DNA of 50,523 bases from assembly GCA_025965795.1 (NCBI GenBank), contig JAOPWH010000238.1:1-50523 (forward strand), read 5' to 3'. The notes beneath the pieces are model-generated. The model saw only the letters and a list, made by a program, of their open reading frames with translations, did no database searches and had not been told where the DNA came from. Of the stretch, positions 5,977 through 25,115 are shown piece by piece. Made by a program: the position numbers and the translations under genes. The first letter of the stretch is position 1. Each line of letters begins with the position of its first letter. This DNA comes from Blastococcus sp. Lineage in GTDB: Bacteria; Actinomycetota; Actinomycetes; Mycobacteriales; Geodermatophilaceae.

Positions 5977-6607
5977 GCGACAGCCGGGGCAGCAGCACCT
6001 GCACCAGCGGACCGACCGCGAGCGCGTAGACGACCGTGCCGAGCCCCAGCCTGCCCCCGAGCAGCCAGCCGGTGGCGACCACGCCGACCTCGATCGACGT
6101 GCGCACCAGCCGCACCGATCCACCGGTGACGCGGACCAGGCCGGTCATCAGGCCGTCCCGCGGGCCGGGGCCCAGGTGCACCCCGATGTAGGCGGCCGTG
6201 GCCACGGCGTTGAGCAGGACACCGGCGACCAGCAGCCCGACCCGCACCGGCATGGACGACGGCGCCGGGACGACGGCCAGGGCGGCGTCGACGGCCACCC
6301 CGATCACGAGAACGTTGCTCACGGTGCCGAGGCCGGGCCGCTGCCGGAGCGGGATCCAGGCCAGCAGCACCAGCGCACCGACCGCGACCGAGACCGTGCC
6401 GATCGACCAGTTCAGTCGGGTCGCGAGGCCCTGGTGCAACACGTCCCACGGCATGTTGCCCAGCGTCGAGCGGATGATCAGCGCCATCGAGAGGCCGTAG
6501 ACCGCCAGCCCGAGGTACAGCTGGACCAGCCGGTGGGGCAGCCGGCGGCCGCGCAGGGACGGAACGCGGCGGCGCGGGGACTGGAGCACGCCCGGAGTCT
6601 GACTCAC
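5921..6607 (-). CDS. YczE/YyaS-type integral membrane protein
   Basis: 228 residues with about five to six membrane helices. The two internally similar loops GNMPWDVLHQGLA (near residue 50) and GPGPRDGLMTGLVRVTG (near residue 145) are the marks of the YczE/YitT-like family (COG2364). Its transport role is uncertain; B. subtilis YczE is linked to surfactin production. The GTG start overlaps the larC stop by 4 bp (GTGA), so the two are translationally coupled. The last 18 or so residues (SRRTPPDDAPPLPD) read through antisense of the VOC remnant and probably replaced the native C-terminus after a rearrangement. Confidence 0.83.
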   Translation of the reverse strand: MSQTPGVLQSPRRRVPSLRGRRLPHRLVQLYLGLAVYGLSMALIIRSTLGNMPWDVLHQGLATRLNWSIGTVSVAVGALVLLAWIPLRQRPGLGTVSNVLVIGVAVDAALAVVPAPSSMPVRVGLLVAGVLLNAVATAAYIGVHLGPGPRDGLMTGLVRVTGGSVRLVRTSIEVGVVATGWLLGGRLGLGTVVYALAVGPLVQVLLPRLSLSPASRRTPPDDAPPLPD

Positions 6608-7812
6608 GGCTGCCCGGCGTCCGGTCCGGTGTGCTGATCAGCCGCCGGGTACGCGGCTTCCGCGGCGGCCGTGGCCGCCCGCAGCACCTCCTTGACCGGC
6701 AGGCCGAGCTCGCCGGCCAGCGCGGCGACGTCCTCGAACTCGACGCTGACGTTGACCCGCCGGCCGTCGGACACGGCGACCTTGACGCCGACCCGCCCGC
6801 CGAGCACCTCGACCGACGTCTCGGACCGCTCCATCGCGACCTTGCCGACCGGCACCACCCGGAGGCCGATGGTCGACGTCGTCGCGAACACCGCCGCCCG
6901 CACCTGCCGCTCGAGGTCTGCCCGGCAGAGGACGGAGAGTGTCTGCGCCGGCCGCCCCTTCTTCATGAGGATCGGGGTGAGCCAGGCGTCGGAGGCCCCG
7001 GCGGCGAACAGCGCGTCGAGGACGCCCGGCCACAGCCGGGGGTCCAGGTCGTCGACGTTGGTCTCGAGCACCAGGGCGCCAGGGGGCGGGGGCCCGTCGG
7101 GGGAGCCGAGCACCAGCCGGACGACGTTGGGCAGCTGCTCCGGGTCGCGGCCACCGGCGCCGACGCCGACGCGCTCGACCCGCATCGGCGGCAGGGTCGT
7201 CCACTCGTCGACGCGGGCGGCGACGAGCGCGGCGCCGGTCGGCGTGCACATCTCGGCGGGAACCGCACCGGCGTGCACGGGGATGCCGGCCAGCAGTTCG
7301 AGGACCGCCGGTCCGGGGATCGGGACGACGCCGTGCGCCCCACGGGCCGAGCCGCTGCCGAGCGCCACCGGTGAGGCCGTCAGCCGCGACAGCGCGAGGT
7401 GCTCGAACCCGGCGACGACGCCGACCACGTCGGCCAGGGCGTCGAGGGCGCCGACCTCGTGGAAGTGCACGTCCTCGGCGGGCATCCGGTGCACGCGACC
7501 CTCGGCGACCGCGAGTCGCTCGAACACCGCCAGGGCGCCCTCGCGGACCGCCGGCGGCAGGGCCGCGTCGGCCAGCAGCGCTCGGACCTCGGACCAGGTG
7601 CGCTGCGCGTCCGACGCGGGCGCGTGCACGTGCACGCGGGTGGCGCCGAGTCCGTGCCGGGTGGTCTGCTCGACGGTGAGCCGGATCGGCTCGACGGGGA
7701 GCGCGGCGACGGCGGCCCCGGGGACCTCCAGCGGAACCCCGGCGTCGACGAGCGCGCCGAGCAGCATGTCGCCCGACGCCCCGGCGGACAGGTCGAGCCA
7801 CCCGATGGTCAC
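6604..7812 (-). CDS. larC: LarC, nickel insertase of nickel-pincer nucleotide cofactor synthesis
   Basis: 402 residues of the LarC (formerly DUF111) family. The N-terminus is IGWLDLSAGASGDMLLGALV; further motifs are HFHEVGALDALADVVGV, a PxPAVLELLAGIPV segment, CTPTGAALV, and ETNVDDLDPRLWP near residue 255, then MKKGRPAQTLSVLC. LarC uses CTP to insert nickel into the pincer precursor made by LarB and LarE, giving the cofactor of lactate racemase-type enzymes. In Lactobacillus, LarC is made by ribosomal frameshifting from two frames; here it is one uninterrupted frame. The GTG start is 6 nt after an AATAAT box, unusually AT-rich for this DNA, suggesting a leaderless mRNA. LarE and a LarA homologue are not in the window. 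Confidence 0.95.
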   Translation of the reverse strand: MTIGWLDLSAGASGDMLLGALVDAGVPLEVPGAAVAALPVEPIRLTVEQTTRHGLGATRVHVHAPASDAQRTWSEVRALLADAALPPAVREGALAVFERLAVAEGRVHRMPAEDVHFHEVGALDALADVVGVVAGFEHLALSRLTASPVALGSGSARGAHGVVPIPGPAVLELLAGIPVHAGAVPAEMCTPTGAALVAARVDEWTTLPPMRVERVGVGAGGRDPEQLPNVVRLVLGSPDGPPPPGALVLETNVDDLDPRLWPGVLDALFAAGASDAWLTPILMKKGRPAQTLSVLCRADLERQVRAAVFATTSTIGLRVVPVGKVAMERSETSVEVLGGRVGVKVAVSDGRRVNVSVEFEDVAALAGELGLPVKEVLRAATAAAEAAYPAADQHTGPDAGQP

Positions 7813-7862: not shown

Positions 7863-8339
7863 ATGCCCCTGCCCCGCATCCTGTTGCTCATCTTCGATCC
7901 GGCCGGCGCGGAAATGGAGAAGGGCCGACCCTCCAGGCCGCGGGCGCCGATGCACCGGGGTGCGGCGGTCTACGGGCCGGGGGAGCCGAGCGGGGGTCGC
8001 CCCGCGACCGTGGCCGAGGCCCAGGTGCTGGCGGCGAGCGCCGCGACGCACGCCGGCCGGTTCGAGGAGTCGGTCGAGGCCCTCCTGCGTCGTCGGTCGG
8101 TACAGCTGGAGGCCGCTGCGGACGAGCTGCTGCGCACCGGCTCGGTCGGGCTCCGGCTCGGCGCCTGGGAGGTCGAGGCACGGATCATCCGTTTCTGGCA
8201 CGGCGACTCGGTGCTCGAGATCAGCAGCAGGTCCGACGCCGGCAGCAGGCGAGGTCGGACGAGGATCCCCCGGGACCCGAGGCGGCTGGGTCGCGAGGGG
8301 CTGACCCACTACCTCGCGCACGCGGCGACTGACGACTGA
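7863..8339 (+). CDS. hypothetical protein, 158 aa
   Basis: I do not recognise this protein. It opens with a short hydrophobic run (PRILLLIFDP), continues with a basic, proline-rich stretch (KGRPSRPRAP), then a helical segment rich in A, E and R (EAQVLAASAATHAGRFEESV) and a beta-like LGAWEVEARIIRFWHG segment. It was accepted as a gene because it has G/C-biased codons, a TACCGT -10 box exactly six bases before its ATG, and otherwise lies in an unexplained gap. It is placed on the opposite strand between larC and the LarB-fusion gene, breaking what would otherwise be a larB-larC arrangement. Confidence 0.5.
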   Translation: MPLPRILLLIFDPAGAEMEKGRPSRPRAPMHRGAAVYGPGEPSGGRPATVAEAQVLAASAATHAGRFEESVEALLRRRSVQLEAAADELLRTGSVGLRLGAWEVEARIIRFWHGDSVLEISSRSDAGSRRGRTRIPRDPRRLGREGLTHYLAHAATDD

Positions 8340-8355
8340 CGACTGACGGCGGGTG

Positions 8356-11229
8356 TCAGGACCGTCCGGTGCGGCGCGCCACGCGGGCGGCGAAGACACC
8401 GGCCGAGTAGCCGTTGTCGAGGGTGCCGACCACGACACCGGGCGCCGTCGCGGTGAGCATGGTGAGCAGGGCACCGAGCCCGCCGAGCGCGTTCGGCTGG
8501 CCGGTGGAGGTCGGCACCGCGACGACGGGCAGGTCGGTGTGTGCGCCGATGCTGGCAACCAGCGAGGCGTCCATCCCGGCGACGACGACCAGGCAGTCGG
8601 CGTCGGCCGGAACCCCGCCGTCCGCGAGCATCGACCGGAGCCGGCTGGGCCCGACGTCGTCGAGCCGGAGGACGGCGGTGCCCGTGACGCGTGCCACGAA
8701 CGCGGCCTCGGCCGCCACGGGGATGTCGGCACCGCCCACGCACAGCACCCGCACCCGGCCGACGGGCTCCGGCAGGCGGCCGACCGCGGCGGCGGACGCG
8801 GCGGCGTCCAGAGTCGTGTCCGCGCCGTGCTCGGCGGCGAGCGCGACGAGGGTGTCGGCGGAGGCGCGCAGCACGAGCGCCGGGCGGTCCGGGTGCTCCA
8901 GCCGGGCCTCGCGCACCAGGGTGAGGACCTGCTCGGGAGTCCGGCCGGTGCCCCAGATGACGTCGGGCGCCGCGGTCCGCGCCGGAGTCGCCGGCCCGGT
9001 GGCGGGCGGAACGGCGGTGGGCGGAGCAGCGGCGGGCGGAGCGGGGGTGGGAGCCTGCGCAGCCGGTGCGGCAGCGGTCGGCAACGGGCCCAGGATGGGC
9101 TCGGACGCGCTGCCCAGGCCCAGCGGCGGGTCGAAGCGGGAGGGCACCGCCAGCAGGGGCGCGAATCCGGTCTCGTCGGACGCTTCGTCGACCGGGGACG
9201 GCGGCTCGACCAGGGCCACGGTGTCCTCCGGGGGCTCGGGCTGCGCGGCGGTGTCCTCGGAGCCGCCCTCCGGGGCGCGTGTCTGCGTCACGCCCGAGAG
9301 CCGCACGACGCGGTCGCGGCCGCTGCGCTTGGCGTCGTAGAGCACGCCGTCGGCCGCGGCGAACAGGGTGCGGCGGTCGTCGCCGCGGGCGGCCGAGGCG
9401 ATGCCCACACTGATGGTGACGGTGCCCTCGAGGCCGAGCTCTGACCAGTCGTTCTGCGCGACGGCCATGCGGATGCGCTCGAGCGCGCGTTCGCCCTGCT
9501 CGGCCGTGGTGTCGGGCAGCAGGATCACGAACTCGTCGCCGGCCCAGCGGCACACCTCGTCGGTGTCGCGGACGCCGGCGACGAGCAGGTCGGCGACCGC
9601 CCGCAGGACGACGTCCCCACCGGGGTGACCGATCGCGTCGTTGATCGACTTGAAGCGGTCCACGTCGACGACGGCCAGTGCCGGCGCGGCCCCGGCGGAG
9701 AGCAGGCCGTCGAGGCGCGCCTCGGCGTAGCGCCGGTTGGGCAGGTGGGTGAGCGGGTCCTCGTAGGCCTGGCGGCGCAGCTGGCCGGCCGCTCTCTCGG
9801 TCTCCAGCAGGCTCTTGCGCCGGCCGAACAGCTCGACCCAGCGGGTGCGCCGCTCGTCGACCCGGTCCAGCTCGTCGGAGAGATACGCCTGCAGGTAGGG
9901 CAGGGCACGGCCCGCGTCGTCCAGCTCGGCGTGCAGGGTGCACAGCTCGCGCAGCGCGGCGCGGCGCAGGCGGGGGAGGCCGTGCTCGGTGCCGAGGGTC
10001 AATGCCGACACCAGGTGCTGGTCGGCGGAGTGGGTGTCGCCCTGCCGGCGCAGGGCGCGGCCCAGCGCCAGCTGTGCCGAGGCGAGCTGCGCGCGGTCGG
10101 CGGTGGCCGACGTGATGCGCACGGCGGCGCGCAGGGGACCGATCGCGGCGTTGTGCTCGCCGAGACCGACCAGGGCCCAGCCGTGCACGACCTGGGCCGC
10201 GACGATGCTCGGTGCCTCGGGCGGCAGGATCTCCAGCGCCCGTTCGGCGAGTTCGCGCGCCTCGGCGAAGTGCGGTTCCGCCGATTCGGGGACGCCGTCG
10301 TCGAGCAGGCCTTCGCCGAGTTCGGCGCACAGCTCCCCGAGCCGGATCGCGGCGTCGGCGACCAGCAGCACCGGGTCGCCGTCGTCCTCGCCGAGCGCGT
10401 CCGGCGTCTCGGCGGCTGCGAGGGCGGCCTCGTGGGACCGCCGCTGGAAGTCCAGCGCGAGGGGCATGAGCTCGAGGTCGGCGAGGACGCCGGCGAGGGT
10501 GCCGAGGGTGTCGACGAGCAGCCCGCTCGGTGGCAGCGACGGGGCCAGCAGGCTGGCTGCCTCGACGGCCTCGTCCATGGCGGCGTCGATGCGGCGCGAC
10601 AGCAGTTCGATGCGGGCGTGCCGGGCCAGACCGGCGGCGCGCTGGAGGTCGTCGTCCGTGGCGTCGAAGGCGGCCTTGGCCGAGCGCACCAGCGCGATGG
10701 CCAGGGCGGCCCGGGTGGCCGATTCCGACCTCGGGTCGACGTCGTCGCCGGGGACGGTGCCGGAGACGGCGGAGCCACCGCCGTCGATGAGCTCGGCGAC
10801 CCCGGCGTGCAGGTCGAGCGCGGGCTCGGTGACGGCGTCCGGCGCGGCCGGAACGGGGTCGCCGACCAGCGTGAACCCGGCGACGCGCAGCCGGCGGACG
10901 AGCAGTTCGGCGCGCAGCGTGTCCGCCCAGGCGCGACCGAGCGAGCCGGGGGCGTCGTCGGACGCGTCGTCGGCCGGTTCGGCCGCGACGTAGGGCGAAG
11001 GGTCCCGCTCGACTCCGGCGAGCAGTTCCTCGGCATCGTCGAGTTGCCAGTTCGCCAGGGCAGCGGTCACCCGTTGATGGAGAGCTCCGGGTGGCACGAG
11101 CGCACTGTGCACGTCACCCCGGTCGCTGTCGAGCACGTGTTCGGAGCCACGCCGTCCCCTGTCCGTCGCGTCCCACGTGCCCCACCCGCGCGCCGCAGCG
11201 GGGCCGTCGCCGCGTTCGGCGGCGCTCAC
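8356..11229 (-). CDS. TPR-GGDEF-LarB fusion protein
   Basis: A 957-residue single frame with three parts. Residues about 50-470 are alanine-rich helical repeats of TPR type (for example AAIGPLRAAVRI and AQLALGRALRRQGDTHSADQ). Residues about 488-645 are a GGDEF domain: DPLTHLPNRR, the metal motif VVDVDRFKSINDA, the active-site variant AGDEF (563-567) and an inhibitory RxxD site (RDTD, 554-557) five residues before it, so c-di-GMP synthesis looks possible. A Pro/Ala-rich linker (about 650-753) leads to a LarB/AIR-carboxylase-like domain (about 754-957): PDVIWGTGRTPEQVL, GGADIPVAAEAA, VVVAGMDASL, PVVAVPTSTG and TLDNGYSAG. LarB normally carboxylates and hydrolyses nicotinate adenine dinucleotide at the start of pincer synthesis. 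The LNxCAPG cysteine motif of LarB reads LTATAPG here, so carboxylase activity is doubtful. The GTG start overlaps the upstream GGDEF gene's stop by 4 bp. Confidence 0.9.
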   Translation of the reverse strand: MSAAERGDGPAAARGWGTWDATDRGRRGSEHVLDSDRGDVHSALVPPGALHQRVTAALANWQLDDAEELLAGVERDPSPYVAAEPADDASDDAPGSLGRAWADTLRAELLVRRLRVAGFTLVGDPVPAAPDAVTEPALDLHAGVAELIDGGGSAVSGTVPGDDVDPRSESATRAALAIALVRSAKAAFDATDDDLQRAAGLARHARIELLSRRIDAAMDEAVEAASLLAPSLPPSGLLVDTLGTLAGVLADLELMPLALDFQRRSHEAALAAAETPDALGEDDGDPVLLVADAAIRLGELCAELGEGLLDDGVPESAEPHFAEARELAERALEILPPEAPSIVAAQVVHGWALVGLGEHNAAIGPLRAAVRITSATADRAQLASAQLALGRALRRQGDTHSADQHLVSALTLGTEHGLPRLRRAALRELCTLHAELDDAGRALPYLQAYLSDELDRVDERRTRWVELFGRRKSLLETERAAGQLRRQAYEDPLTHLPNRRYAEARLDGLLSAGAAPALAVVDVDRFKSINDAIGHPGGDVVLRAVADLLVAGVRDTDEVCRWAGDEFVILLPDTTAEQGERALERIRMAVAQNDWSELGLEGTVTISVGIASAARGDDRRTLFAAADGVLYDAKRSGRDRVVRLSGVTQTRAPEGGSEDTAAQPEPPEDTVALVEPPSPVDEASDETGFAPLLAVPSRFDPPLGLGSASEPILGPLPTAAAPAAQAPTPAPPAAAPPTAVPPATGPATPARTAAPDVIWGTGRTPEQVLTLVREARLEHPDRPALVLRASADTLVALAAEHGADTTLDAAASAAAVGRLPEPVGRVRVLCVGGADIPVAAEAAFVARVTGTAVLRLDDVGPSRLRSMLADGGVPADADCLVVVAGMDASLVASIGAHTDLPVVAVPTSTGQPNALGGLGALLTMLTATAPGVVVGTLDNGYSAGVFAARVARRTGRS

Positions 11230-12941
11230 GGCCGCTCCTCGTCCGGCGTGTCGTCCGGCGTGTCCTCGAGTGCCTCGTCCGGCACCTCATCCGGCGAGGC
11301 GGCACCGGGAGCCCGGACCCGGTTGCGGCCCCCCCGCTTGGCCGAGAAGAGGTGCAGATCGGCGGTGTCGAACACGCTCCGCCAGCCCACCGCGCCGCCC
11401 TCGGCTCCCTCGGCGACCGCCGGTGCGGTCGCCACGCCCACGCTGACCGTCACCGCCTCGGTGAGGTCGAGGTCGCTCCAGTCGGCATCCGCGACGGCGC
11501 GGCGCAGCCGTTCCATCACCACGACGGCCTGGGCCTCGGTCGCGGTCGGGAGGACGACGAGGAACTCGTCACCGGCCCAGCGGTACACCTCGTCGCCGTT
11601 GCGGCTGTGCTCGCGCAACAGGTCGGCCACCCTGCGGAGGACGGCATCGCCCTGGGTGTGCGAGGCGGCGTCGTTGACCGACTTGAACCGGTCCACGTCG
11701 ACGACGGCCAGCGACAGGGGCTCCCGGCCGAGCCGCATCGCGCCCAGCCGGCGCTCAGCGCTGCGCCGGTTGCCCAGCCCGGTGAGCGGGTCCTCGAGCG
11801 CGTGCCGGCGCAGCAGCGCGGCCTGACGCTCGGCCTCGCGCAGCCGGCTGCGGCGGACGAACATCTCCGCCCACATCTGCCGGCCGCGGGCGTGCGCGCG
11901 GCCGGTGTCGGACCGGTAGGCCTCCAGCCAGTGCAGCGCCTCGGCCGGGCGGCCCAGGTCGGCGGTGTGCTGGCCGAGCTCCAGCAGGCACTGGCGGTAG
12001 CGCCGCCGGTCGCCGGCGGCGACGAAGGAGCCCGCGGCGTCGACCAGCAGGCCCACGGCCTCCTCGCCCTGTGCCGGGTCGTCGTCCCGGTCGGCCAGCC
12101 GGGCGAGCAGGCGGGCCAGGACGAGGTCGGTGTACCCGCGCAGCCAGACGCCGCCGTCGGCCTGGACGTGCCGTCGGACCCGGCGCAGGGGGCCGAGCGC
12201 GCCGTCGAGGTCGTCGGAGCACATCAGCGCCCAGGCCTGGACGACGTCGAGGAGGTCCTCCTCCGCCCGCTCCGGCTCCCAGGGCAGGTCGCGGGCGGAG
12301 GCGGCGCAGGCGATGGCCTCGGCGGCCAGCTCGCGTGACCGGGTCTCGTCTCCGCGGCGGCGCAGCGTCTGGGCCAGCTCGGTGTGCTGCTGGGCCGACA
12401 GCAGGCGCATGCGCCACAGGTCCGCAGGCTCGCGCAGCGCCGCGGCCCCGTGCTGGGCCCGGAGGGCGTGCGCCACGGCCAGCTCCTCCAGGTCGAGACC
12501 GGCCAGCGTGAGCGACAGCCAGCGGTGCGCCAGGAGCAGGGAGCGCGACGCCTCGGCGCCGGCGGGCCCCTCGGTGAGCAGGCTCGCGTCGACGGCGAGC
12601 AGCATCGCCGCGTCGAAGTGGTCGGCGGTGACCTCGACCTGCGCGAGATAGGCCAGGGCGAGCGCCGTCTGCGCGGTCGGCGGGCACTTGTCGAGGGCCT
12701 CGCGGGCGGCCGTGGCGCGCTCGGAGACCGGCTCCGGTTCGCCGTCGATGAGGCTGCGGCGGGCGGCGAGCGCGTGCCGCCATGCGGCCCAGAGCGGCTC
12801 CTCGGTCTCGGCGAAGATCGCATCGGTCTCGTCGAGGACGGCGAGGAAGGCGGTGGCGTCGTCCCGGGGAGGCGCGGCGAGCAGGCGCCAGAGGGCAGCC
12901 TGCTGATCGCCGTCGGCGCTCCGGGCCGCGCGCTCGCTCAC
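11226..12941 (-). CDS. TPR-GGDEF protein, putative diguanylate cyclase
   Basis: 571 residues from a GTG preceded by GGAGG; a longer frame exists, but the extra residues look non-coding. Residues about 1-375 are helical TPR-like repeats without membrane segments, so the protein is probably cytosolic. The GGDEF domain (about 380-545) has DPLTGLGNRR, VVDVDRFKSVNDA, the variant active site AGDEF (456-460), which is compatible with activity in other cyclases, and an I-site RNGD at the usual spacing. A repetitive acidic tail (DEVPDEALEDTPDDTPDEE) follows. It resembles the next gene throughout the TPR and GGDEF parts and is coupled to it by a GTGA overlap, so the pair probably arose by duplication and one copy gained a LarB domain. 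Confidence 0.92.
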   Translation of the reverse strand: MSERAARSADGDQQAALWRLLAAPPRDDATAFLAVLDETDAIFAETEEPLWAAWRHALAARRSLIDGEPEPVSERATAAREALDKCPPTAQTALALAYLAQVEVTADHFDAAMLLAVDASLLTEGPAGAEASRSLLLAHRWLSLTLAGLDLEELAVAHALRAQHGAAALREPADLWRMRLLSAQQHTELAQTLRRRGDETRSRELAAEAIACAASARDLPWEPERAEEDLLDVVQAWALMCSDDLDGALGPLRRVRRHVQADGGVWLRGYTDLVLARLLARLADRDDDPAQGEEAVGLLVDAAGSFVAAGDRRRYRQCLLELGQHTADLGRPAEALHWLEAYRSDTGRAHARGRQMWAEMFVRRSRLREAERQAALLRRHALEDPLTGLGNRRSAERRLGAMRLGREPLSLAVVDVDRFKSVNDAASHTQGDAVLRRVADLLREHSRNGDEVYRWAGDEFLVVLPTATEAQAVVVMERLRRAVADADWSDLDLTEAVTVSVGVATAPAVAEGAEGGAVGWRSVFDTADLHLFSAKRGGRNRVRAPGAASPDEVPDEALEDTPDDTPDEERP

Positions 12942-13044
12942 GTGCTGCCTCCAGTCGCGGGGTGGCCCGGCCGGAAGGCCAGGTCTGCCGGGTGACGAGT
13001 CGCAGCTTCCCCCGGGTGGAGCATCCGCCCCCACCCGCCCGCAC

Positions 13045-13056: not shown

Positions 13057-14007
13057 ATGCCCGGGAAGCCCCCCAGTACACGCCCGACGCGGTTCGCCTA
13101 TCTCGGGCCCGAGGGTACCTTTGCCGAAGCGGCACTCAAGAGGGCACTTGCCTCCTCGGAGGGAGCGCGTTCACCCGCCCCGAGCGTGGCGGCGGCACTG
13201 GCCGCCGTCCGAACGGGGGACGCCGACGCCGCCCTGGTTCCCCTGGAGAACTCCGTCGAGGGCTCGGTGCCGGCCACGATGGACGGTCTGGCCGACGGCG
13301 ACCCGCTGGTGATCACCCGCGAGGTGTTCCTCCCTGTGACGATGACCCTGGTAGCCCGGCAGGGGGTCGCGCTCGCCGATGTGCGCTCCGTGGCGAGCCA
13401 TCCGCACGCCCTCGCGCAGGCCTCGCGCTGGCTCGCCACGCACCTGGCCGGCGTCTCGCCTCTGCCGACGACGTCGACCGCCGCCGCCGCCGCGGCCGTC
13501 GCCGCCGGGGAGTTCGACGCCGCCGTGTGCGCGCCGATCGCCGCCGAGCGGTACGGCCTGGCGACCCTGGCCGACGACATCTCCGACCACCCCGGCGCGG
13601 TGACCCGGTTCGTGCTGGTCACCCCGCCCGGCGACCTCCCCGGGTCCAGCGGCAACGACAAGACGTCGCTGGTCGCAGTCGTCGGTGACCGCACCGGGGC
13701 GCTGCTGGAGCTGCTCAGCGAGTTCGCCGTCCGAGGGATCTCCCTGACGCGGATCGAGTCGCGGCCGACCCGCGAGCGGCTCGGCGTCTACTCCTTCTCC
13801 CTCGACTGCGAGGGGCACATCGCCGACCGGCGGGTGGGGGAGGCGCTGGCCGCGCTGCACCGGGTCTGCGAGGACGTGCGGTTCCTCGGGTCCTATCCGC
13901 GGGCCGACGGGCGGCAGAACGTGCCGGTGCCGCCGGTGGCCGCCGATGCCGCCTTCACCGAGGCCGAGGCCTGGCTCGAACGGGTGCGCGACGGCTCGGC
14001 CGGCTGA
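13057..14007 (+). CDS. pheA: prephenate dehydratase
   Basis: 316 residues; converts prephenate to phenylpyruvate in phenylalanine synthesis. The catalytic domain starts with FAYLGPEGTFAEAAL, contains VPLENSVEGSV and ASHPHALAQ, and the substrate-binding T-R-F triplet is present (AVTRFVLV, near residue 185). The C-terminal ACT domain (about 205-285) has the GALLELLSEFA and ESRP motifs that bind phenylalanine for feedback control. No chorismate mutase domain is fused, as usual in Actinobacteria. In M. tuberculosis pheA lies close to a small metallopeptidase gene and serS; here those lie 13-16 kb further on. Confidence 0.97.
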   Translation: MPGKPPSTRPTRFAYLGPEGTFAEAALKRALASSEGARSPAPSVAAALAAVRTGDADAALVPLENSVEGSVPATMDGLADGDPLVITREVFLPVTMTLVARQGVALADVRSVASHPHALAQASRWLATHLAGVSPLPTTSTAAAAAAVAAGEFDAAVCAPIAAERYGLATLADDISDHPGAVTRFVLVTPPGDLPGSSGNDKTSLVAVVGDRTGALLELLSEFAVRGISLTRIESRPTRERLGVYSFSLDCEGHIADRRVGEALAALHRVCEDVRFLGSYPRADGRQNVPVPPVAADAAFTEAEAWLERVRDGSAG

Positions 14008-21123: not shown

Positions 21124-23538
21124 TCATGCTCCCCGACGACGCGCCTCCTCCCCGCTCAGGGGCTCGATGTCGCCCTTCGCGAATCGTCGCCGCAGCTCGA
21201 AGAGGTCGCTGGGACTCAGCGGCATGGCGTCGATCCGAAATCCCTCGGCGTCCTCCACCGCGCTGGCGATGGCAGCCACGGCGGGGATCACCCCGGCCTC
21301 GCCCGCTCCCTTGAGGCCGAGCGGGTTGAGGGGCGACGGCGTCTCCAGATGGTCGATCTCGATGTTCTGCGGCACCTCCGTGGCGAAAGGCATCAGGAAG
21401 TCCATGAAGGAGGCGTTGAGCAGTTGTCCGTCGCGGTCGTAGACCATGCGCTCGTAGAGCGCGCCGCCCACTCCCTGCGCCACGCCGCCGTGGATCTGCC
21501 CCTCGACGATCAGCGGGTTGATGACGCGTCCGCAGTCGTGCACGACGCAGTAGCGCAGGATGCGGATCTCCGCGGTGGCCCGGTCGGTCTCGACCACCAC
21601 CGCGTGGACGCCGTTGGCGAACGTCGACCGGAGGGGCGAATGGAAGCCCACGGCCTCCAGGCCCGGCTGGGCACCGTCCGGCAGCGGCGGCCGGTCGTCG
21701 TGGTGCGGTGCCACGAACTGGGTGGCCGAGCGGGCTTGCTCGTCGAAGGCGTACCGGAGCGGGTTGGACAGCACGGCCAGGGTCGACAGCGGCAGTGCCG
21801 TCCCCGGGTTCCCCTTCACCCGGACGGTCCCGTCGACCAGTTCGAGGTCGCCGGCGTCGGCCTCCAGCGTGTCGGCGGCGATGTCGAGCGCCATCGCCCT
21901 GACCTCGCGCGCTGCGCGGGCGACGGCGTTGCCGGCCATCACCGCGCCCCGCGAGGCGTAGGTGCCCACGCCGTAGCGGACGGCCCGTGTGTCGCCCGTG
22001 GTCACGTCGACGACGTCGTGAGGGACGCCGAGTTCCGAGGCGACGATCTGGGCCAGCGTGGTCTGGTGGCCCTGTCCCTGGCTCGTGATGCCGGTCGCCA
22101 CCGTGACGCGGCCGCTGGGCAGGAGATGCACGCGCGCGGTCTCGTACGGCCCCAGCCCGGTGTTCTCGACGTAGGTGGCCAGCCCGATCCCGACGGTTCG
22201 GCCCTCCCGCCGGGCGGCCGCTCTGACCTCCTCGAACTCGTCCCAGCCGATCAGCTCCTTCAGCTTCTCCAGCGCCGCCGGGTAATCGCCGGAGTCGTAG
22301 ACGACCTCGCGGCCGTCCTGACCTCGAAATCCGTGGCCATAGGGCATCTGGTCCGTCGCGATCAGGTTGACCTCTCGCACCGCCGCCCGGTCCATCTCCA
22401 GATGGTCGGCGATCCGGTCCATCATCCGTTCCACCGCGAACACGGCCTCGGGCCGACCGGCGCCGCGATAGGGCGCGACCATGACCAGGTTGGTGTACAG
22501 GGCGGTGACGGTGGCCCGCTTGGCGGGCACCGCGTAGGGCCCGAGCAGATGGGACGACGTGTTCTGCGAGACGACCAAGCCGTACTGGGAGTAGGCGCCG
22601 ATGTCGTGCCAGATGTCGATCTCGTAGCCGAGGACGCGCCCTGAGTCGTCGAACCCGACGCGCACGTGCTGTTGCTGGGCCCGCTCCTGGGCGCTGGCGA
22701 TGAAGTTCTCGCGCCGGTCCTCCACCCACTTCACGGGACGACCCAGCAGCCTTGCGGCCAGCGGGACGAGGATCTCCTCCGGCCAGGGCCGCACGCCCTT
22801 GAGGCCGAAGGCGCCGCCGACGTCGGGCGTCACGACGTCGACAGCGGTCTCCGGCAGCCCCAGGAGGTAGGCGACCACCGCCCGCACGGCGTGTGCCACC
22901 TGGGTCGAGGTGTGGATGACCAGCCGTCCGTCGTCCGGGTCCACGCGTGCCAGGACGCCACGGCCTTCGATGGGTGCGGCCATGCTGCGCTCGATGGTGA
23001 GATCGAGGTCGAGTACGTGCGGCGCGCGGGCGAGCGCGCCGTCGACGTCGCCGCACGTCTGCCTGATGACCCCGGCGATGTTGTCGGGAACGTCCTCGTG
23101 CACCGTGGCGTCGGCCCGCCGAGCCGCATCGATCCCGACCACGGGCGGAAGCGGCTCGTACTCGACCACGATCGCGCCGGCCGCGTCCTCGGCCAGATAC
23201 CGGTCGCGGGCAACCACCATGACGATCGGTTCGCCGAGGTGGTTGACCTCCTCCCGGGCCAGGGCATACCCGGTGCGCGACGCCGTCAGCCCGGGGTGCG
23301 GAATGCTGACCGGGATGGGGTCGGCGGCCCGGCCGGGCAGGTCCTCCCAGGTGTAGATGGCGACGAGGCCCTCGACGTCGAGCGCGTCGGTGACGTCGAT
23401 GTCGAGGATGCGGGCATGCGCGTGCGGACTGCGGACGAAGGCGGCGGCCAGCGCGTCGGCCCCCAGATCGTCGAGGAACCGGCCCTGGCCGATGACCAGG
23501 CGCCGGTCCTCGACGCGGGGGAGCGGAGAGCCCAGCAC
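21124..23538 (-). CDS. xanthine-dehydrogenase-family molybdopterin subunit (CoxL-like)
   Basis: 804 residues, full length for the large subunit. The N-terminal part has RVEDRRLVIGQGRFLDDL and VRSPHAHARI; the molybdopterin-binding half has GGAFGLKGVRPWPEE, APYRGAGRPEAVFAVERMMD, GQGQGHQTTLAQIVASELG and the C-terminal catalytic glutamate region LKGAGEAGVIP. The CO-dehydrogenase-specific AYxCSFR loop is absent, so it is a hydroxylase for an aldehyde or N-heterocycle rather than CO dehydrogenase. The GTG start lies 2 nt after the permease stop. The FAD and 2Fe-2S subunits, usually encoded next to it, are absent from the window, so it must borrow partners encoded elsewhere or work differently. Confidence 0.92.
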   Translation of the reverse strand: MLGSPLPRVEDRRLVIGQGRFLDDLGADALAAAFVRSPHAHARILDIDVTDALDVEGLVAIYTWEDLPGRAADPIPVSIPHPGLTASRTGYALAREEVNHLGEPIVMVVARDRYLAEDAAGAIVVEYEPLPPVVGIDAARRADATVHEDVPDNIAGVIRQTCGDVDGALARAPHVLDLDLTIERSMAAPIEGRGVLARVDPDDGRLVIHTSTQVAHAVRAVVAYLLGLPETAVDVVTPDVGGAFGLKGVRPWPEEILVPLAARLLGRPVKWVEDRRENFIASAQERAQQQHVRVGFDDSGRVLGYEIDIWHDIGAYSQYGLVVSQNTSSHLLGPYAVPAKRATVTALYTNLVMVAPYRGAGRPEAVFAVERMMDRIADHLEMDRAAVREVNLIATDQMPYGHGFRGQDGREVVYDSGDYPAALEKLKELIGWDEFEEVRAAARREGRTVGIGLATYVENTGLGPYETARVHLLPSGRVTVATGITSQGQGHQTTLAQIVASELGVPHDVVDVTTGDTRAVRYGVGTYASRGAVMAGNAVARAAREVRAMALDIAADTLEADAGDLELVDGTVRVKGNPGTALPLSTLAVLSNPLRYAFDEQARSATQFVAPHHDDRPPLPDGAQPGLEAVGFHSPLRSTFANGVHAVVVETDRATAEIRILRYCVVHDCGRVINPLIVEGQIHGGVAQGVGGALYERMVYDRDGQLLNASFMDFLMPFATEVPQNIEIDHLETPSPLNPLGLKGAGEAGVIPAVAAIASAVEDAEGFRIDAMPLSPSDLFELRRRFAKGDIEPLSGEEARRRGA

Positions 23539-23540
23539 CG

Positions 23541-25115
23541 TTACCTGTGTTCTCCGGTGGCTGTGCCGTCGTCCGACTGCCGCCCCGTCGGAAGGTGGAC
23601 CCCTCCGGCCGGGGTCGTCGCTCCCGCCCGGGAGACCGTGGACGTCGGCGCACCATCGCCACCCGCGGCGGCCGGCACCTCGGCCGTCGCAGTGTCCAGG
23701 TTCGTGTCCGAGTCCGCACGCGGGCGGCCGGGGAGCGCGAAGTGGGCGACCAGTACCAGGAGGAGGCCGGCGACCATGGGGTCCGAGAGGAGCGGCCGGA
23801 TGACTTCCGGAAGCCGCCCCAGCAGGTCGGGGGAGATCGCGTGCAGGCCCACGGCCGGGGCCAGTCCCAGGCTGAGGACGGCCGCGTTCCGGGGGGTGGC
23901 CATGTCGCCGGCCAGCCGCCGCACACCCTCGCTGGCGATCATCCCGAAGGTCATGATGAGCCCGGCGCCCAGCACGGGGGCAGGCATGGCAGCGATCAGC
24001 GCCGCGAACTTCGGTACCAGGCCGAAGATCACCATCACCGCACCCCCGGTCGCCACTGCGTAGCGGCTGCCGATCCCGGTGAGCCGGATGAGGCCGACGT
24101 TCTGGCCGTAGGTGGTCATCGGCAGGCCGGAAGTGAGGCCGGCCAGCGGACCGCCCAGGCCGTCGACGATCAGTGCCCCGCGCAGCTGGCGGGAGGTGAC
24201 CTTGCGGTTGAGGATCGTGGCCACGGCCGTGGAGTCGCCCAGGGTCTCGATGAAGGTGGCCAGGTACACGACGGTCATGGCGACCACCACGGCGAGCCCC
24301 GGCCAGGCGGGTGCGCCCAGCTCGAAGGGGCTGACCAGGCCGAACCAGGGGGCGGACTGGACGCCGGCGAAGTCGATCAGGCCGACGATGGCCGCGAGCA
24401 CGTAGCCGACAGCGAAGCCCACCAGGACCGAGACCGGCCGGAGCAGCTTCGAGCCGAGGCAGCCCAGGCCCGCGATGACGGTCAGCGTGACCACGCCGAC
24501 CAGCAGCGCCGTTCCGGAGCCCTCGTACGGCTTGCCCATCGACAGGAAGTTCTTCAGCCCGATCGGCATCAGGCTCACCCCGATGACCAGCAGGAAACAG
24601 CCGATCAGGAACGGTGTGAACAGCCGCCGCAGGATGCCGGCGAAGAAGCCGAGGCATGCCGTGAGCAGCCCGCTGATCAGCGCCGCACCGTAGAGGGCGG
24701 GGAAGCCGCCGGCCTTGTAGGCGACGAGCATGGGGCCGATGAACTTGAAGGTGGCCGCGTTGACGATCGGCAGGCGGGCGCCGAGCGGTCCGATGCCCAG
24801 GGACTGCACCATCGTCGCGATGCCGGCGGCGATCAGCACGCCGGAGACCAGGATGCGCTCCTCCCGGGATCCGAGTCCGACCGCTGCCGCGAACGTGAGC
24901 GGGACCCCGATCATGGCGGCGAACGCCACGATCACGTGCTGGAAGCCGAAGAGGATCATCTTCGGCGCGGCTGGGCGGTCATCGAGGTCGTAGAGGATCG
25001 TTATCGCCTGGTCGTTCCCCGTCTGCGAGGAACTGCTGCCGTCGGCGGCTGGGCGGGCCGGCTCTCCGGTCTCACCAGGGTGCGGCGGTCCAGCGGGGCG
25101 TTGCCTTCTGATCAT
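23541..25115 (-). CDS. NCS2 family nucleobase permease (uracil/xanthine type)
   Basis: 524 residues. A cytosolic N-terminal tail (about 50 residues) precedes some 12-14 membrane helices. The family core is clear: FGFQHVIVAFAAMIGVPL, GARLPIVNAATF (the alpha-strand substrate region), the TFIETLGDSTAVATI motif with the conserved glutamate, and the signature GLPMTTYGQNVGLIRLTGIGSRY. A hydrophilic tail of about 55 residues follows the last helix. NCS2 carriers import xanthine, uric acid, uracil or similar rings with protons. The ATG overlaps the amidohydrolase stop (ATGA), placing it in the same operon and pointing to a purine- or pyrimidine-like growth substrate. Confidence 0.94.
   Translation of the reverse strand: MIRRQRPAGPPHPGETGEPARPAADGSSSSQTGNDQAITILYDLDDRPAAPKMILFGFQHVIVAFAAMIGVPLTFAAAVGLGSREERILVSGVLIAAGIATMVQSLGIGPLGARLPIVNAATFKFIGPMLVAYKAGGFPALYGAALISGLLTACLGFFAGILRRLFTPFLIGCFLLVIGVSLMPIGLKNFLSMGKPYEGSGTALLVGVVTLTVIAGLGCLGSKLLRPVSVLVGFAVGYVLAAIVGLIDFAGVQSAPWFGLVSPFELGAPAWPGLAVVVAMTVVYLATFIETLGDSTAVATILNRKVTSRQLRGALIVDGLGGPLAGLTSGLPMTTYGQNVGLIRLTGIGSRYAVATGGAVMVIFGLVPKFAALIAAMPAPVLGAGLIMTFGMIASEGVRRLAGDMATPRNAAVLSLGLAPAVGLHAISPDLLGRLPEVIRPLLSDPMVAGLLLVLVAHFALPGRPRADSDTNLDTATAEVPAAAGGDGAPTSTVSRAGATTPAGGVHLPTGRQSDDGTATGEHR

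Follow-up and report, generated by a model that had tools for sequence, protein, structure and literature searches.

A TPR-GGDEF protein of the Geodermatophilaceae ends in a LarB-fold domain that appears to have lost its catalytic residues

What does a domain resembling LarB, an enzyme of nickel-pincer cofactor synthesis, do at the end of a GGDEF protein? The question arises from a single gene of Blastococcus sp. (assembly GCA_025965795.1), on contig JAOPWH010000238.1, positions 1 to 50,523 of the forward strand; this whole stretch of 50,523 nucleotides is referred to as the window. A first-pass annotation of the window had described an uninterrupted 957-codon frame with TPR-like repeats, a GGDEF domain, a Pro/Ala linker, and a C-terminal LarB-like domain, and had offered 2 readings, a coupling of cyclic diguanylate (c-di-GMP) signalling to cofactor supply or a LarB fold that controls the cyclase as a sensor. 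We confirmed the frame, which lies on the minus strand, and read its product as a diguanylate cyclase with a probably exapted LarB, its catalytic residues lost, as the C-terminal domain. The gene and the parts of its product are as follows:

8356..11229, minus strand: TPR-GGDEF-pseudoLarB fusion gene, 957 codons in one unbroken frame, with a GTG start at 11229 and a stop ending at 8356
9925..10734, minus strand: TPR-like helical region, residues about 166-435 (AlphaFold2; Pfam match below cut-off)
9769..9915, minus strand: long helix, residues 439-487, between the TPR region and GGDEF (AlphaFold2; highly conserved in the alignment)
9310..9768, minus strand: GGDEF domain, residues 488-640 (Pfam PF00990)
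9559..9570, minus strand: RxxD inhibitory site, residues 554-557 (R554 and D557 in 45 of 45 rows)
9529..9543, minus strand: AGDEF active-site motif, residues 563-567 (AGDE in 45 of 45 rows; residue 567 is F in 40 and Y in 5)
8974..9291, minus strand: disordered Pro/Ala linker, residues 647-752 (AlphaFold2 and alignment; fast evolving)
9151..9168, minus strand: GFAPLL linker motif, residues 688-693 (alignment)
8359..8967, minus strand: pseudo-LarB domain, residues 755-957 (NF033503, alignment, and fold)
8728..8730, minus strand: Ala834, equivalent of LarB S127 (alignment)
8446..8448, minus strand: Thr928, equivalent of the LarB cysteine C221 (alignment)

The GGDEF domain was identified by PF00990 over residues 488-640 with an E-value of 8.6e-38 and 130.1 bits against a cut-off of 23.8, and both metal-site Asp residues of VVDVDRFK are kept, as are the AGDE and RxxD residues, in all 45 full-length rows. 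As to the TPR-like repeats, the full-length AlphaFold2 model shows an all-helical stack at residues ~166-435, followed by the helix at 439-487, the GGDEF domain, disorder at 647-752, and a compact C-terminal domain, but the TPR part stays below the Pfam cut-offs (TPR_MalT 29.1 bits versus 45, TPR_12 21.7 versus 30.1). The mean predicted local distance difference test score (pLDDT) of this model is 72.4 and its predicted template modelling score (pTM) 0.46, and the packing of the domains is not predicted by it. Searched with Foldseek, the full model matched the cyclases SiaD and DgcB best, and the DgcB structure includes its coiled coil. These coiled-coil-stalk cyclases have the GGDEF domain, AGDEF motif, RxxD site, and long helix before GGDEF in common with the fusion, whereas the TPR-like N-terminal part and the pseudo-LarB C-terminal domain are found in the fusion. 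The anatomy of the fusion, together with the loss of LarB catalytic residues described below, is hardly in doubt.

The C-terminal domain has the LarB fold, as had been proposed. The NCBIfam LarB model NF033503 matched residues 750-952 with an E-value of 4.4e-40 and 137.6 bits, a significant match that lies below the curated cut-off of 175, which one fusion relative (G056, 178.7 bits) just exceeds among the fusions scored with the LarB family model. The Pfam AIRC family (PF00731) reached 33.4 bits, over its cut-off of 30, with a match that spans residues 877-951 only. The model of the isolated domain has a pLDDT of 86.5, and all 27 of its best matches in the PDB are LarB chains, with 36-38% identity and a TM-score of 0.76-0.87 (ranks 1-27). 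PurE, the aminoimidazole ribonucleotide (AIR) carboxylase that shares the AIRC match, gave weaker fold matches (a TM-score of 0.40-0.50 after normalisation by the model, among the PurE-type entries listed), and the domain is nearer LarB in both sequence and fold. With the solved LarB proteins (PDB 7mj0-7mj2, 8soq, 8stc, and 8std) the domain has in common the fold, many core residues, and an adjoining larC, and it differs from them in its sub-cut-off score, its place behind GGDEF, and the absence of C221, S127, and the D39/R42/R45 segment.

LarB is described in 2 reports as a carboxylase/hydrolase of nicotinic acid adenine dinucleotide (PMC9283937, PMC11796402). We aligned 42 stand-alone LarBs with 49 fusion rows in the numbering of L. 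plantarum LarB, genome G014 being counted twice. All 42 stand-alone LarBs have Cys at residue 221, against 0 of the 48 fusions in which this position is occupied (A in 35, T in 4, S in 4, G in 3, and P in 2), and further stand-alone rows also carry C221 (28 of 28 and 16 of 16, 2 sets that may overlap one another). A title by Rankin et al. from 2021 reportedly names a cysteinyl-pyridine intermediate; we take C221 to be the cysteine behind it, which its conservation in all 42 stand-alone LarBs supports. At position 127, Ser was found in 41 of 42 stand-alone LarBs but in 0 of 49 fusion rows (A in 24, G in 22, V in 2, and P in 1). The N-terminal D39, R42, and R45 are present in 42 of 42 stand-alone LarBs, whereas in the fusions D39 is lost, R42 is found in 13 of 49 and R45 in 4 of 49, and other residues have mostly taken the place of H158/R159 (H in 5 of 49). 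At the same time, D128, E134, D151, A177, G178, P199, T200, S201, D231, and G233 are kept in at least 90% of both sets, and 6 positions have changed to a new common residue in the fusions (K57R, L69A, V154G, G156R, G181A, and A212G). The pattern is similar in carriers with and without another LarB and larE (17 versus 32 rows). Judged by these columns, the fused LarB domain looks like a pseudoenzyme.

A domain that is still an enzyme with altered chemistry, for example hydrolysis of a dinucleotide without the cysteine, would agree with the purifying selection reported below and with the retention of the acidic D128, E134, and D231. The losses speak the other way: C221 and S127 are absent from all fusion rows that cover these positions, the D39/R42/R45 segment is not kept, H158/R159 are largely replaced, and residue 221 has no consistent substitute (A, T, S, G, or P), so we regard such an enzyme as improbable.

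Could the protein instead carry a working LarB and join c-di-GMP signalling to nickel-pincer cofactor supply, as was first suggested? We identified larC on the same strand downstream of the fusion in 33 of 49 loci, at a distance of <300 bases in 23 of them (the loci span about 6 kb downstream), and the neighbouring larC had been taken to strengthen the LarB reading. The window's genome, however, encodes a separate complete LarB of 247 bits on another contig that also holds part of larE (123 bits). Across the family, 37 of 101 carriers of the fusion-type domain had no other LarB match, and larE was over the cut-off in 0 of these 37, with the family-wide profile search scoring the best candidates per genome only; completeness is 90% or more in 34 of the 37 and lower in 3 (G133, G145, and G147). 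No stand-alone LarB over the cut-off was found in the 17 of these 37 genomes that were searched with the LarB family model. The other 64 of 101 carriers have another LarB match, and 62 of the 64 have larE, the 2 exceptions without a larE call being a genome of 70% completeness (G144) and one with a partial larE hit (G148). A larC match was missing in 28 of the 37 fusion-only genomes, and 5 of the 9 with larC have a divergent copy of 121-158 bits. The fusion is independent of the nickel-pincer cofactor pathway: a coupling of the fusion to cofactor supply was rejected on the presence of larE, larC, and LarB across 112 family genomes, and with the catalytic residues lost as well, a working LarB has a very small chance of being the right description. 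Because larC lies downstream in 33 of 49 loci, yet has no match in 28 of the 37 fusion-only carriers, the adjoining larC is better read as a likely remnant of an old larB-larC pair than as evidence of cofactor synthesis.

Two side observations concern these lar genes. In L046, L054, L055, G099, and G107, larC is kept at 121-158 bits without larE and another LarB, as if drifted or reused. Some family members (G027, G042, G114, G117, G120, and others) have a separate stand-alone larB with larC after it; 4 of these 5 named genomes carry larE on that contig too, and the fusion profile gives the LarB of such members a higher score than the usual larE-linked one.

We estimated the ratio of nonsynonymous to synonymous substitution rates (dN/dS, omega) for the parts of the fusion by a simple Nei-Gojobori count on G+C-rich DNA, in which dS is probably underestimated at depth (dS was <0.9 in all 990 pairs). 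In the 24 closest pairs, which are not independent of one another, omega was 0.04-0.39 for the LarB domain, 0.05-0.39 for the TPR region, 0.32-1.18 for the linker, and at most 0.18 for GGDEF in 23 pairs, with 0.68 in one. Carriers without larE and another LarB gave LarB-domain values of 0.08 (L036-L037) and 0.12 (L054-L055). The mean column conservation was 0.795 for LarB, 0.796 for TPR, 0.897 for GGDEF, and 0.417 for the linker. By these substitution counts, the LarB domain is under purifying selection. Within the linker, the motif GFAPLL stands out, with F689 in 36 of 36 aligned rows and G and both L in 91-94%, and it is possibly a docking site in an otherwise fast-evolving disordered segment.

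These data also bear on whether the domain is a decaying, functionless remnant of a gene fusion. Some members are indeed shortened or divergent (L082, L083), and the frame is broken in the area of the linker in L053 and L178. Against decay stand the omega values, a column conservation equal to that of the TPR region, and the placement of the gene near a contig end in both carriers of TPR-GGDEF without a LarB hit (G054 and G146). Decay was rejected by dN/dS, and we give it next to no weight.

By score and place, a fusion-type LarB domain was assigned in 101 of the 112 family genomes searched, and GGDEF was checked in part of them. The detailed set comprises 49 rows from 48 genomes, the window's genome included and G014 giving 2 rows from 2 contigs; in one row (L081) the LarB part is cut short by a contig end. 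One frame of at least 850 codons with both GGDEF and LarB sequence was present in 45 of 49 rows, and the full-length alignment took 45 of the 49, leaving out 4. Of the 4 rows without such a frame, 2 (L056 and L074) start where their contigs start; the frame of L053 is broken in the linker, and that of L064 is interrupted by an in-frame stop. A sequencing error joining 2 genes, an alternative raised with the first description, was ruled out as a general explanation by the 45 rows with a single long frame. Short open frames in G099 and G102 had hinted at a split gene, a reading likewise rejected, as contig ends account for them. Of the 11 family genomes without the domain, 9 belong to genera g6, g9, and g11, and the others are G054 and G146; in these 2 the TPR-GGDEF gene is present, and loss of the LarB domain is unproven there because the gene runs close to the contig end.

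Among the matches listed, at 57-76% identity, were Blastococcus, Modestobacter, Geodermatophilus, Klenkia, Goekera, and unclassified Geodermatophilaceae, as well as one metagenome-assembled genome titled Frankiales and one record titled Bacillus. The domain of L109, 'UNVERIFIED_ORG: Bacillus sp. AZ43', is 73% identical to the window's pseudo-LarB, and the organism label is probably wrong. A search of plasmids gave 30 records, each at <60% identity. The TPR part was matched in 25 of 150 genomes of the order, where the 7 outside the family reached at most 27 bits against at least 403 bits for the best match per family genome, and it appears family-specific as far as sampled. In a scan of one genome per species, the best 80 loci included 20 of Nocardioidaceae at 46-52% identity, of which 16 were checked and all carry C221; in the 28 non-family loci drawn in the class, no GGDEF was found in frame within short flanks, and C221 was present in 28 of 28. 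With the fusion profile, stand-alone LarBs of the order reach up to 232 bits (G063, G070, and G065; G063 and G065 carry C221) and the most diverged fusion, G017, 222.7 bits, so that score alone cannot separate a fusion from a stand-alone LarB.

The surroundings of the gene suggest where the domain came from. The neighbours in the window are:

11226..13034, minus strand: upstream TPR-GGDEF gene, 602 codons, its end overlapping the fusion gene by 4 bases
6604..7812, minus strand: larC, intact (TIGR00299 and NF052512 over cut-off)
13057..14007, plus strand: pheA (prephenate dehydratase), divergent, marking the likely ancestral larB-larC site

A TPR-GGDEF relative and the divergent pheA lie beside the fusion in 47 of 49 loci, and the other 2 loci start at contig starts. 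In the window, the gap between the fusion and larC is 547 bases between aligned ends, compared with <300 bases in 23 of the 33 loci with larC. Genus g9, which belongs to the same family, has a stand-alone LarB in the arrangement divergent pheA, then larB, then larC (L179, L180, L184, and L094), and this arrangement was also found in 5 of the 20 Nocardioidaceae loci (L165, L169, L170, L173, and L174) and in L016 and L020, which come from further families of the order. At 19 of the 20 Nocardioidaceae loci, larB is followed by larC or by its start; the remaining one (L161) ends first. Truncation excluded 2 of the 49 fusions from the tree, and the careful tree was built from 57 of 106 rows picked by hand; the fusions form one clade (100/100) that groups with the pheA/larB/larC rows (96/88), and an approximately unbiased (AU) test gave p 0.234 for fusions grouped with both pheA/larB/larC and Nocardioidaceae rows. 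The tree agrees with the synteny but does not prove the origin, which it does not settle alone. In the simplest history, pheA and larB became separated by 2 cyclase genes, to the second of which larB was fused. The ancestral larB, from a pheA / larB-larC site, would have been joined in frame to a TPR-GGDEF gene, at its end, in an ancestor near the base of most of the family, and the cofactor pathway would have relied, already or later, on another larB next to larE.

Between the fusion gene and larC, a plus-strand open reading frame of 158 codons (7863-8339) had no family match over the cut-off and no hit in the 48 other loci.

What, then, might the domain do? GGDEF proteins are known with many sensory domains, and GGDEF enzymes act as dimers. 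On balance, we favour the dead LarB as a ligand-binding and/or oligomerising regulatory module of the diguanylate cyclase, a reading drawn from sequence and predicted structure. The fold retains parts of the presumed nucleotide pocket (D128, PTS 199-201, D231/G233, and AG 177-178), and the domain probably binds a nucleotide-type ligand and/or drives oligomerisation. Either event would change GGDEF dimerisation and with it the c-di-GMP output; the dead LarB could add a ligand-dependent or a constitutive oligomerisation step, and it may act jointly with a protein input that the TPR region reads. The PDB holds LarB entries with adenosine monophosphate (AMP), nicotinamide adenine dinucleotide (NAD), and Zn, and the entries of the S127A variant (8soq, 8stc, and 8std) are titled 'in complex', so a lack of S127 apparently need not keep LarB from holding a ligand; in the fusions this position is Ala or Gly in 46 of 49 rows. 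The sensor reading first proposed, in which a LarB fold controls the cyclase, agrees with the pseudoenzyme pattern and with the selection data, a nicotinate dinucleotide or another compound being the candidate ligand. Its narrower form, a receptor for a nicotinate/adenine dinucleotide that sets cyclase activity and was made by fusion in place with loss of catalytic residues, is tentative and in our estimate rather unlikely. If true, NAD-precursor status would feed directly into c-di-GMP signalling across a bacterial family.

The strongest competitor is a dead LarB that is an oligomerisation scaffold only, self-assembling like its PurE/LarB relatives and gathering GGDEF domains with no ligand. 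LarB and PurE-like folds appear to be oligomeric, as LarB entries hold 6 chains and 'Human octameric PAICS' is among the fold matches; the fold and core residues are retained with the catalytic residues gone, and a long flexible linker suits tethering over rigid signalling. The near invariance of D128, PTS, and D231/G233, however, goes beyond what a scaffold seems to need, and a long helix already stands ahead of GGDEF, as in the coiled-coil cyclases; we hold this explanation possible but clearly less probable than the regulatory module.

Several observations weigh against the regulatory module or the history given for it. About 100 disordered residues join the LarB domain to the rest of the protein in the AlphaFold2 model, which makes rigid allosteric coupling to GGDEF less obvious. 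G125, T126, G153, Y204, and G205 are conserved in stand-alone LarB and variable in the fusions, so that ligand binding may be lost. The frame is broken in or near the linker in L053, a one-contig genome, and in L178, and L064 has its in-frame stop; if real, these breaks would make the LarB part separable there, although they may be sequencing errors. On the side of origin, 15 of the 20 Nocardioidaceae loci have no divergent pheA hit, the stem of the fusions is long, at about 1.0 change per site, and a grouping of fusions with larE-linked LarBs was not rejected by the AU test (p 0.339).

The c-di-GMP output itself has a plausible setting. RsiG, a c-di-GMP-binding anti-sigma factor, is given for 16 of 16 Geodermatophilaceae species in one report (PMC8325347), and 26 GGDEF matches were found in the genome of the window; on these 2 counts, c-di-GMP signalling is plausible in the family.

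Our literature search for GGDEF with LarB, nickel-pincer, AIR carboxylase, or pseudoenzyme found no description of such a protein within its coverage, outside which most subscription journals lie. The family would offer a case of an enzyme becoming a signalling domain in which living relatives show both the likely ancestral and the derived state, and its domain is a defined candidate for feeding a metabolite signal into c-di-GMP. There is a warning for annotation as well, as a LarB label on the fusion protein would suggest nickel-pincer cofactor synthesis in genomes without the pathway. Elsewhere in the window, positions 21124-24657 encode the large subunit of an aerobic carbon-monoxide dehydrogenase (NF040766, over cut-off).

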